Assembly (NCBI GenBank): GCA_016786765.1
Contig: JAEUUZ010000019.1
Span: 62,001-126,000, forward strand
DNA: 64,000 nt
Reading direction: 5' to 3'
From: Chitinophagales bacterium
GTDB lineage: Bacteria; Bacteroidota; Bacteroidia; Chitinophagales; LD1
The translations under genes were made by a program, and so were the position numbers. The notes beneath the pieces are model-generated. The model was not told the DNA's origin. It did no database searches and was given only the letters and a program-made list of their open reading frames with translations. Positions within the stretch are counted from its first letter, which is position 1. Every line of letters begins with the position of its first letter. Positions 39,258 to 42,415 of the stretch are shown piece after piece.

Positions 39258-39512
39258 TTTAGTACATTTTGACAGATTCTCTCCCAAAAACGGTACTAAA
39301 TGACCGAAATCGCCTTTTTGTAAGCATTGATGTGTCCGTGTTCCGCTAAGAAGCGGCACCGGGTGTTTCGCTGCAATCTTTTCCAATAAGCATTGGCAAA
39401 GGATTTCCGCTGCACCCCCTCACGGGGCATTGTGCACATCTTGACATTACAATTTGCATGAACCTCACAACCCTCACTTCCCAACCTTCAACTCATAACC
39501 CTCAACTCCCAA
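39258..39512. repeat. Structured intergenic element with nested hairpins and repeats
   Basis: The 398-base gap between secA and the desaturase gene (39104-39501) holds no credible gene. It contains a spaced inverted repeat TTTAGTAC/GTACTAAA (39258-39265 and 39293-39300). Three short hairpins follow: CCGCT/AGCGG (39343-39356), CCAAT/ATTGG (39383-39396) and CCCC/GGGG (39416-39427). Near-identical words TTTCGCTGCA (39366-39375) and TTTCCGCTGCA (39404-39414) flank the middle hairpin. The right end (39464-39512) is a CCCTCAAC-type repeat containing the desaturase stop codon. The rest of the gap (39104-39257) shows nothing I recognise. Confidence 0.6.
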
Positions 39513-40596
39513 CTTCCTCAGGCCACTTATGCGCCCCATCACAAAAAGGAGCATTCTTCGTTCGTTTACAGTTACACAACGTGCATTTTTGTTGCTTGTC
39601 CAACTTAAACAATAGCGGTTTGTGTTTTGTACCGTGGTGACAGCCATCGCAAAACGGTTGCGTTTTACTGAATCCGCACCGGCACCACAAATAATTTCCT
39701 TGTGCTAAATCAACAATAGTAGGTGCATCAACTTTTGTATCTGTTACATTAAATTCACTCGATAATGGGCTGTTCCTATTTTCGCTTTTCAATACCGGAA
39801 AGAACATTTGCGTGTACCATGCATCATGCGTATCGGTTTGAATACCAAACTTTTCCGGGTATTGACGGGTGAAATAAGCAGAGCCAAAAAGAATATCCCA
39901 AAAGGCAAACATATTCCCGAAGTTGCCATTGGGCTCACTTATTTCATCAACTTGTGAAACACCATGATGTGCAAAATGAAAAGCAGGAGTAACAATGGTT
40001 CGCTCTACAACCCAAGCCAATGGCGAGAGCCATGCAGAACGATACAACCACTGATCCCATTTGGTGGTACTATGCGAACCAATAATCACCAATTGTTTTA
40101 GCACTAAACCAACAACAACCGCACTCCCTGCTCCCCAAAACGTGAATAAGGCTAACCACCAAATATTAGGCATCAACACATAATATAATGCTGCATTACG
40201 GTAAGACACCAGCAATCCCATTTCTGTAGACGCATGGTGTGCACGATGCAACTTCCAAAGAAATAAATATTCATGTGCTGAACGATGATACCAATACTGC
40301 ATCACATCATCCACCAACAAAAAAAGGGGCAATTGAAAATAGAAGGGCATTGCATTCAATAATGTGTTGCCATAAGGGAAGAGTATATTGCCTAAATAGA
40401 CAACCAGAACAACTATCACTGGCTTTGTAACCACACTCAACAGAAAAAAGCTAAAAAACTCTTGAATATAATCGCCTGTTGATCTTTTGCTATTGGAGAG
40501 ATGTCCGGTAATAAATTCAATCAAACCGAATACGACTAAAATGCCTAGCACTAAATACTCGTTATACAAACGAAAAAACAAAATAACCGATTCCAT
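39502..40596 (-). CDS. Fatty acid hydroxylase/sterol desaturase fused to two CDGSH domains
   Basis: A 364-residue fusion. Residues 1-260 form a membrane di-iron hydroxylase of the sterol desaturase superfamily, with several membrane helices and histidine clusters HRSAHEYLFLWKLHRAHHAS and HFAHHGVS that bind the two irons. After a linker come two zinc-finger-like iron-sulfur motifs of the CDGSH type: CRCGFSKTQPFCDGCH and CNCKRTKNAPFCDGAH, each fitting C-x-C-x2-(S/T)-x3-P-x-C-D-G-x-H. These should hold two [2Fe-2S] clusters and could pass electrons to the di-iron site. Substrate unknown. Confidence 0.88.
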   Translation of the reverse strand: MESVILFFRLYNEYLVLGILVVFGLIEFITGHLSNSKRSTGDYIQEFFSFFLLSVVTKPVIVVLVVYLGNILFPYGNTLLNAMPFYFQLPLFLLVDDVMQYWYHRSAHEYLFLWKLHRAHHASTEMGLLVSYRNAALYYVLMPNIWWLALFTFWGAGSAVVVGLVLKQLVIIGSHSTTKWDQWLYRSAWLSPLAWVVERTIVTPAFHFAHHGVSQVDEISEPNGNFGNMFAFWDILFGSAYFTRQYPEKFGIQTDTHDAWYTQMFFPVLKSENRNSPLSSEFNVTDTKVDAPTIVDLAQGNYLWCRCGFSKTQPFCDGCHHGTKHKPLLFKLDKQQKCTLCNCKRTKNAPFCDGAHKWPEEVGS

Positions 40597-40620: not shown

Positions 40621-41364
40621 TTAAAATTTCAGTTTCAAAGAAAACCCTGTAATAGACGATCTATCATTCAGAGCCGTATAGTTGGGCAACACACTCGGTT
40701 CAAAGCTCAAAATTGCTTTGGCATCATCCGCTCTATGTTTTGCATTTCTAGCCATGGCAAATTTTATACCGCCTGCTACTGTAAATCCAAGCCCGGTATA
40801 GAGCATAAGTACCCCCGGAATAAGTGAGCCAAGTGCAGCCCCTAAATTACCGGTTGGCTTTTTGTATCCAACACCGTAATCATATCCACCCGGGTCATAT
40901 TGCTCCATTAAATATCCGCCAAGTGCTGTCAATCCAATACCACCAACAAACACAGTAGGCCCAGCTATAAGCATTGATCGTGCTCCTTTTATCCTCCGAT
41001 TATATATTTGCATATAACGCTCGTAATCCAACTTCGCTTTCTCGATTCGCTCTAATCTTCTCTTTTCTTTGTTTATTGCTATCTCTTCGAGTTTTTGCTT
41101 TCTTGCAGCGCTCATAGATTGCGTACTATCAATCGACTCTTTAACGCCATTCGCATAGGTAATTTCTACCGCATCGGCTTTATCAATAGTGTAGGTCGGA
41201 CCATCTTGATTTTCATATAATTTGTACTTAATTTCTGTTTGAGAAACTTCAACAACCTTTACTTTAAGGAGCTGCTCATTTTTCAACTTCATCACATCTT
41301 GTGCTTGTAATTGAGCATGAAACAAAAACACAATAAGCACATAAAAAGGTAATCGTAAATGCAT
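40621..41364 (-). CDS. Exported protein with two membrane segments, unknown function
   Basis: A 247-residue protein with a signal peptide (residues 1-21, ending LQAQ). A beta-rich N-terminal part contains VKVVEVSQTEIKYKLYENQDGPTYTI, a pattern I recall from many Bacteroidota proteins that start with a short strand domain. A lysine/glutamate-rich coiled-coil-like stretch follows (about 85-125), then two glycine-rich hydrophobic segments. The C-terminal end FSLKLKF has the alternating aromatic look of an outer-membrane strand. I do not recognise the family. Confidence 0.75.
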   Translation of the reverse strand: MHLRLPFYVLIVFLFHAQLQAQDVMKLKNEQLLKVKVVEVSQTEIKYKLYENQDGPTYTIDKADAVEITYANGVKESIDSTQSMSAARKQKLEEIAINKEKRRLERIEKAKLDYERYMQIYNRRIKGARSMLIAGPTVFVGGIGLTALGGYLMEQYDPGGYDYGVGYKKPTGNLGAALGSLIPGVLMLYTGLGFTVAGGIKFAMARNAKHRADDAKAILSFEPSVLPNYTALNDRSSITGFSLKLKF

Positions 41365-41680: not shown

Positions 41681-42415
41681 GTGAACAGTATATCTCTTTT
41701 TTACGAACCATTTCTTTCTACCTCAAAAGGGGTAGAAGTGGCCGTATTAATCGATCCTGAAAAGGCAGATGAAAGCTATTTAGCAAAACTGTTAGCTATT
41801 GCCGCAGCACAAAACGTGAATTGGTTGTTTGTAGGCGGCAGCACAGTTACTGCCGAACAATTTAAAGCTACTGTAGATTTTTTAAAAACACATAGCCGCA
41901 TTCCTGTAATAATTTTTCCGGGCAGTGAAACGCAATTGCACCCAAAAGCGGATGGATTGTTGTTCTTAAGTTTAATTAGCGGACGAAACCCCGACTATTT
42001 AATTGGTAAGCAAGTGCAATCGGCTTCGTACATTTTGCAATACAACATACCGGTTATTCCTACCGGATATATTTTGGTAGATGGCGGTCGAACATCAACA
42101 ACAGCATCTGTTTCAAACACAATAGCATTGAGCGATAATACAGAAATACTGTTTACAGCTATGGCAGGCGTTTTACTAGGGATGAAAGCCCTTTATTTAG
42201 AAGCGGGCAGCGGTGCCAATAATGTGGTAAATATTGATTTGATTCGCAATATAAAAGCACAATTGCCTGCAAAGCTGATTGTGGGTGGAGGTATTCGCCA
42301 TGGAGCTGATGCAAGGAGAGTGGCAGATGCCGGAGCCGATGTAATTGTAATTGGCAATGCACTGGAAGAAGATGTAACTAAATTGAACGAAATAATGTTT
42401 GAACTAAGGAAATGA
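41681..42415 (+). CDS. Geranylgeranylglyceryl phosphate synthase-like prenyltransferase
   Basis: Joins a polyprenyl chain to sn-glycerol-1-phosphate by an ether bond; the family is best known for archaeal lipids but has Bacteroidota members with GGGP synthase activity. The 244-residue TIM barrel shows VAVLIDPEKA, FVGGSTVT, PVIIFPGS, YLEAGSGA and the phosphate-binding GGGIRHG and VIGNA. The GTG at 41681 is the only usable start: the nearby ATG upstream is followed at once by a stop. It overlaps rsgA by four bases. What the cell makes from the product is not known. Confidence 0.92.
   Translation: MNSISLFYEPFLSTSKGVEVAVLIDPEKADESYLAKLLAIAAAQNVNWLFVGGSTVTAEQFKATVDFLKTHSRIPVIIFPGSETQLHPKADGLLFLSLISGRNPDYLIGKQVQSASYILQYNIPVIPTGYILVDGGRTSTTASVSNTIALSDNTEILFTAMAGVLLGMKALYLEAGSGANNVVNIDLIRNIKAQLPAKLIVGGGIRHGADARRVADAGADVIVIGNALEEDVTKLNEIMFELRK

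Follow-up and report, generated by a model that had tools for sequence, protein, structure and literature searches.

Fusion of a membrane di-iron-type hydroxylase with a tandem CDGSH domain in a Chitinophagales bacterium and its relatives

Domain organization of the fusion protein

The window (the whole stretch of 64,000 nucleotides of Chitinophagales DNA analysed here) includes a gene for a 364 aa protein in which a membrane hydroxylase of the di-iron type is joined to a complete tandem CDGSH domain, a redox-carrier-type domain and a membrane di-iron-type domain being found by Pfam on one chain. The initial annotation had recognized a membrane hydroxylase and two CDGSH motifs in a single open reading frame, and this is borne out, as both Pfam families are over their cut-offs and all eight predicted cluster ligands of the tail (3 Cys and 1 His per motif) are present. 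The FA_hydroxylase match (PF04116, residues 91–239) scores 79.5 bits against a curated cut-off of 31, and zf-CDGSH (PF09360) is matched in two stretches toward the C-terminus with 57.5 bits against a cut-off of 29.5. The features of the gene and its upstream neighbour, all on the minus strand, are as follows.

39502..40596 (−): whole gene for the FA_hydroxylase/tandem-CDGSH fusion, 364 aa, including the stop codon (ORF and Pfam)
40327..40596 (−): N-terminal membrane part, residues 1–90, predicted long helices (hydropathy and models)
39880..40326 (−): FA_hydroxylase catalytic domain, residues 91–239 (PF04116, 79.5 bits)
40273..40287 (−): histidine motif HX3H (H104, H108), invariant in 77 aligned sequences
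40234..40248 (−): histidine motif HX2HH (H117, H120, H121), invariant in 77 aligned sequences
40072..40074 (−): single histidine H175, invariant in 21 fusions and present in at least 90 % of 77 sequences
39964..39978 (−): histidine motif HX2HH (H207, H210, H211), invariant in 77 aligned sequences
39721..39783 (−): variable stretch and linker, residues ~272–292 (column identity)
39637..39684 (−): CDGSH motif 1, CRCGFSKTQPFCDGCH, residues 305–320, ligands C305, C307, C316 and H320 (Pfam, six-frame search and alignment)
39529..39576 (−): CDGSH motif 2, CNCKRTKNAPFCDGAH, residues 341–356, ligands C341, C343, C352 and H356 (Pfam, six-frame search and alignment)
40621..41364 (−): neighbour gene for a 247 aa protein, 24 bases upstream (no Pfam family over cut-off)

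Hydropathy peaks in the N-terminal part start at residues 15 and 50, and helices are modelled at residues 2–29 and 40–72. The motifs HX3H, HX2HH and HX2HH represent the histidine pattern of the di-metal site in the FA_hydroxylase superfamily, and their eight catalytic histidines are invariant in the alignment of 77 sequences, which includes the window protein and takes in both tailed and tail-less members. The start of the linker, up to residue ~279, is still alignable with the tail-less orthologues. The gap between the two CDGSH motifs is 20 residues, and neither motif ends in a literal CDGSH; the endings are CDGCH and CDGAH, each the sole instance of its kind among 43 distinct fusions.

Only PF04116 and PF09360 were matched in Pfam at E 0.01, and the AGMP_C domain of alkylglycerol monooxygenase (PF24858) was absent. 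In NCBIfam, the core matched a single model, that of the OlsE ornithine-lipid hydroxylase (NF052566), which 77/77 aligned members matched. The scores, 41.9 bits for the full-length protein and 42.8 bits for the core alone, fall below the equivalog cut-off of 475.

Structure models and relationship to known CDGSH proteins

The model of the full-length protein, built from 21 alignment rows, is of moderate quality (pLDDT 78.7, pTM 0.75), and a separate model of the core, based on 77 rows, has a pLDDT of 93.4. When compared with known structures, the tail model matched 3tbn, the type 6 CDGSH protein of Magnetospirillum (Z 12.1, 77 residues, 2.5 Å, 43 % identity), and human MiNT, 6avj (Z 11.8, 75 residues, 2.4 Å, 40 % identity), and as modelled the tail has the MiNT/3tbn fold. 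The top match of the core model was the hydroxylase domain of yeast Scs7p, at a Z of 6.1 that is below the tool's secure level (rmsd 5.2, 165 residues; the next, unrelated, match scored 2.2), and the two share 17–18 % identity over the aligned part. A Foldseek search with the core alone returned no match with E <0.001, Scs7p being found at E 6.9.

Type 6 CDGSH proteins are defined by two motifs approximately 20 residues apart with 3 Cys and 1 His each, according to the available text of PMC3174974. The members 3tbn and MiNT/CISD3 resemble the tail of the window protein in the motif distance, the 3-Cys/1-His sets and the modelled fold. However, type 6 proteins are stand-alone and small, whereas the unit found here is the tail of a 364 aa membrane protein, and the fusion relatives also differ from them in that motif 2 mostly ends in CDNSH (18) or CDDSH (16), together 34 of 42. 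Motif 1 ends in CDGSH in 22 of the 43 distinct fusions. Type 5 proteins, like the window protein, combine a tandem CDGSH with a redox enzyme but, unlike it, their partner is the glutamate-synthase FMN domain and the CDGSH part is N-terminal.

Further CDGSH layouts were seen in other genomes. Two that also have the hydroxylase fusion (G742 and G466) include proteins with the type 5 layout (L161 and L162, Pfam on L162). In G622, L163:557–1195 encodes DUF1801 and OmdA (YdeI-type) together with one C-terminal CDGSH motif slightly below the Pfam cut-off, and the layout of L164:1045–1743 in G554 is similar by eye.

Distribution of the fusion

A search for the domain pairing across genomes, as suggested in the initial annotation, showed that, in the order, 23 of 396 genomes carry the fusion, as do seven of 395 in the class, the window's own genome being counted in each. 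In these surveys and in that of the phylum, no more than five candidates were scored per genome, hence misses are possible; the three samples overlap, so that their counts are not additive, and the label 'fused' was assigned by motif pattern. The 69 genomes of the order sample with a match at E 1e-40 comprise the 23 that are fused over the whole model, two further fused copies interrupted by contig ends (G530 and G576), 42 that match the hydroxylase part only and two fragments. In the family to which the window belongs, 14 genomes matched: the tail was present in the own genome and in the interrupted copy of G530, ten were without it, one of these belonging to the same genus as the window, and two were fragments. 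A match was found in 22 genomes of the class sample, and four of the six fusions other than that of the own genome were identical over the last 200 residues to loci from a separate pattern scan of genome_contigs. That scan identified 25 relatives, 20 fused and five tail-less, the tail-less ones (Neomarinimicrobiota-type and MED-G176) ending at 279 residues. In the phylum sample (395 genomes), the fusion was found only in the own genome among the matches listed. Proteins labelled unfused have no more than 36 residues beyond the hydroxylase and, thus, no decayed tail is hidden in them.

Among mobile elements, 27 plasmid records matched, none over 80 % of the query. The best was from Methylocystis (43.9 %), and CDGSH was absent both from the matching gene and from the next gene. 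Phages gave zero matches to the fusion.

One locus, L004 (JAFMKE010000040.1), is titled Verrucomicrobia. It is identical in 2,630/2,630 bases to L086, which is from a genome of the window's order, and the title is therefore probably wrong. Another genome, G604, has two fused copies, which lie on opposite strands with approximately 7 kb separating them; the second (L132) is divergent.

Proposed role of the tail

For each O2, membrane di-iron monooxygenases require two electrons from outside. The core of the fusion would be an O2-dependent di-iron monooxygenase of the FA_hydroxylase superfamily, embedded in the membrane, and the C-terminal tail would be a MiNT-like tandem CDGSH domain with two predicted [2Fe-2S] clusters, presumably on the cytosolic side. 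Tethered by the short variable linker, the tail could dock to the core and, once reduced, its [2Fe-2S] clusters would pass electrons to the di-iron site. In the own genome (G000; 3.62 Mb, estimated 100 % complete), a single FAD_binding_6 reductase was identified, an FAD/NAD/Fer2 protein at G000:C3:79694. It bears a Fer2 [2Fe-2S] domain itself and is a candidate upstream donor that would reduce the tail. The enzyme probably adds oxygen to lipid-like molecules, a putative activity for which a lipid or alkyl chain is the likeliest substrate; the initial annotation had pointed to hydroxylated fatty acids or hopanoid-type lipids as possible products. By analogy with the cytochrome-b5 and AlkB–rubredoxin fusions, we consider it on balance probable that the tail is a tethered [2Fe-2S] electron donor of the hydroxylase.

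Two known systems underlie the analogy. Scs7/FA2H are likewise membrane enzymes of the fatty-acid-hydroxylase kind that include a redox domain in their chain, but their donor is an N-terminal cytochrome b5-like domain, whereas the window protein has a C-terminal tandem CDGSH. The rubredoxin donor of AlkB can be fused C-terminally via a disordered linker (PMC10113152, available text), and the natural AlkB–AlkG fusion of Fontimonas thermophila resembles the window protein, with its putative donor, in that a small iron-sulfur donor is tethered by a flexible linker to the C-terminus of a membrane di-iron monooxygenase. AlkG is a one-iron rubredoxin whereas the tail of the window protein is a tandem CDGSH, and the Pfam matches of the window protein are to FA_hydroxylase and zf-CDGSH only (E 0.01), which do not identify it as an AlkB. 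A loose parallel may be found in Rhodococcus AlkB9, where a gene for an iron-sulfur domain, labelled CDGSH in a figure legend, lies upstream in 9/9 tested regions (PMC11854999, available text).

Genetic context

The 247 aa protein encoded upstream of the fusion gene belongs to a protein cluster that has zero members in the other loci compared, and the two genes are possibly co-transcribed. After the fusion gene comes secA. A gene of the PcrB/GGGP-synthase family lies upstream on the opposite strand (window 41681–42415), with no link to the fusion shown.

A six-frame search of the own genome found CDGSH at three places, two of which are those of the fusion gene. The free CDGSH is on contig C34, approximately 2.4 kb from a paralogous FA_hydroxylase gene. 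The two are on opposite strands with two unrelated genes between them and were not accepted as a linked pair. In all, the own genome includes 11 FA_hydroxylase (PF04116) matches, five of them on C34, and one paralogue (L031) has a weak match, below the cut-off, to the alkylglycerol-monooxygenase C-terminal domain.

The immediate neighbours were compared in 43 fused and 31 unfused loci. A Crp-type cNMP-binding regulator is directly upstream on the same strand in 14/43 fused loci, which are related so that the counts are not independent, and is within 400 bases of 0/31 unfused loci. A TetR-type regulator adjoins the gene in five of the fused loci. Five of the Crp-type regulators and one of the TetR-type were tested with Pfam, the rest being assigned by clustering, and the window locus includes neither type. 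The Crp-type regulators bear on a different reading of the tail, one that we regard as unlikely, namely that it is a redox or O2/ROS sensor whose cluster state switches the hydroxylase on and off and does not supply electrons. The Crp-type regulators of the related loci would fit a regulated enzyme, and the tail-less orthologues show that the core can be powered otherwise. However, donor fusions are the documented pattern in membrane di-iron enzymes, and the texts consulted describe no enzyme of this type to which a cluster sensor is fused.

No reductase family was recurrent beside the fusion in the 43 loci, in a comparison made by clustering with some neighbours named by Pfam. Genes within 400 bases of the fusion include, in 8/43 fused loci, an aldehyde dehydrogenase (L004), GMC oxidoreductases (L079, L120), SDRs (L022, L131), an AMP-binding enzyme (L129) and FMO-like flavoproteins (L134, L135), those of L120, L131 and L135 being assigned by clustering. 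An aldehyde dehydrogenase or SDR is also within 400 bases in 6/31 unfused loci (L115 and L112 by Pfam and four by clustering). Such neighbours recall an alkane or fatty-alcohol oxidation set but, as these are raw counts and the window locus has no such gene, they were not taken as evidence of the substrate.

Conservation of the tail

Seven of the eight ligands (C305, C307, C316, H320, C341, C343 and C352) are invariant in the 21 aligned fusions, and H356 is present in 20, missing only from L012, which ends just before this position. Of the 43 distinct fusions, 42 share a motif spacing of 36 residues. Mean column identity is 0.80 for the catalytic part, 0.77 for CDGSH1 and 0.74 for CDGSH2, and falls to 0.65 between the motifs and 0.58 in the linker. 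When close pairs were compared, dN/dS of the CDGSH part was ≤0.12 in seven of eight and 0.29 in the eighth and most distant (L015/L020), several dS values of this short part being near saturation. Judged from these ratios, the tail is under strong purifying selection in the seven pairs.

The pattern of conservation makes it improbable that the tail is mainly structural or serves in partner docking (dimerisation or membrane-surface anchoring), with the clusters incidental. CDGSH units can indeed dimerise (Lin et al. 2011, PMC3174974, available text), but the cluster ligands do not vary, in contrast to the lower conservation of the linker and of the residues separating the two motifs.

Tail-less relatives and the origin of the fusion

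A PF09360 search was performed in 51 genomes, 22 fused and 29 unfused. Eight of the 29 unfused genomes (completeness 61–100 %) had zero hits, three (G441, G670 and G632) have a free tandem CDGSH unit, and the other 18 have single-motif hits. Among the fused genomes, 8/22 also have a free two-motif frame, and in three others a single hit falls within a frame of 82–87 residues. The CDGSH motif was absent from the 31 unfused loci, 178,891 bases in total, and PF09360 was found in 0/5 Neomarinimicrobiota-type genomes with the tail-less form (1.6–2.4 Mb). Hence, the absence of the tail in the unfused forms is not simply made good by a CDGSH gene nearby. As tail-less orthologues are common and eight unfused genomes are without a CDGSH hit, the tail looks like an add-on module, and the core appears to occur also without a CDGSH partner. 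The tail-less orthologues must have other donors, and the tail is therefore dispensable for the enzyme family, a point against the donor reading.

A tree of the cores was built from 44 fused and 45 unfused rows. The fused rows do not form a single group in it, and the fused label needs two changes with paralogues included and three without them. In the tree as drawn, L132, the second copy of G604, falls outside the main fused clade. A single origin of the fusion was not rejected (AU p 0.231), and we claim neither independent origins nor a single one.

NEET proteins have been reported to hand over clusters, and the tail could on that ground be thought to deliver or store iron or [2Fe-2S] clusters, loading or repairing the di-iron site. 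This is very improbable, as the catalytic histidines are invariant in tailed and tail-less proteins and unfused genomes free of CDGSH hits exist, so that di-iron loading does not generally need the tail. An assembly artefact, one of the outcomes that the initial annotation had named as refuting its reading, an annotation artefact or a chance read-through has nothing in its favour at the window, although the related L092 breaks at a contig end and L012 stops before the last ligand, and can be dismissed because the fusion is conserved across genomes, 20/25 relatives being fused with the ligands kept and independent genomes agreeing in ORF layout, spacing and low dN/dS.

Discussion

The redox targets of CDGSH/NEET proteins are an old question. 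Though CDGSH proteins had been viewed in the initial annotation as mainly separate and small, this holds only in part, since fusions of tandem CDGSH units with further domains have already been described: the available text of Lin et al. 2011 (PMC3174974) lists the glutamate-synthase FMN-binding domain and DUF1271, and that of Sengupta et al. 2018 (PMC5859297) Fer4_19, Glu_synthase, ferritin-like and Rieske_2. Neither main text contains the word 'hydroxylase'. The further view that the arrangement is under-described agrees with our search of the open-licence full-text literature, in which the CDGSH–FA_hydroxylase pairing was not found, though domain databases may list it. Donor-fused membrane hydroxylases are already known and, as far as searched, what is new is a CDGSH unit as the putative donor. 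Whether a CDGSH (NEET) domain is here the dedicated electron donor of a membrane di-iron hydroxylase, to which it is covalently tethered, is, in our judgement, evenly balanced.

The natural fusion names a partner for CDGSH that is testable in one polypeptide, and the fused and tail-less orthologues provide a natural comparison. If the proposed role is true, a further type of donor would stand beside cytochrome b5 and rubredoxin for membrane di-iron hydroxylases, and the MiNT-type CDGSH unit would have a defined physiological redox target. The fusion also offers a membrane hydroxylase with what may be its own donor, and a route to how bacterial FA_hydroxylase enzymes are powered.
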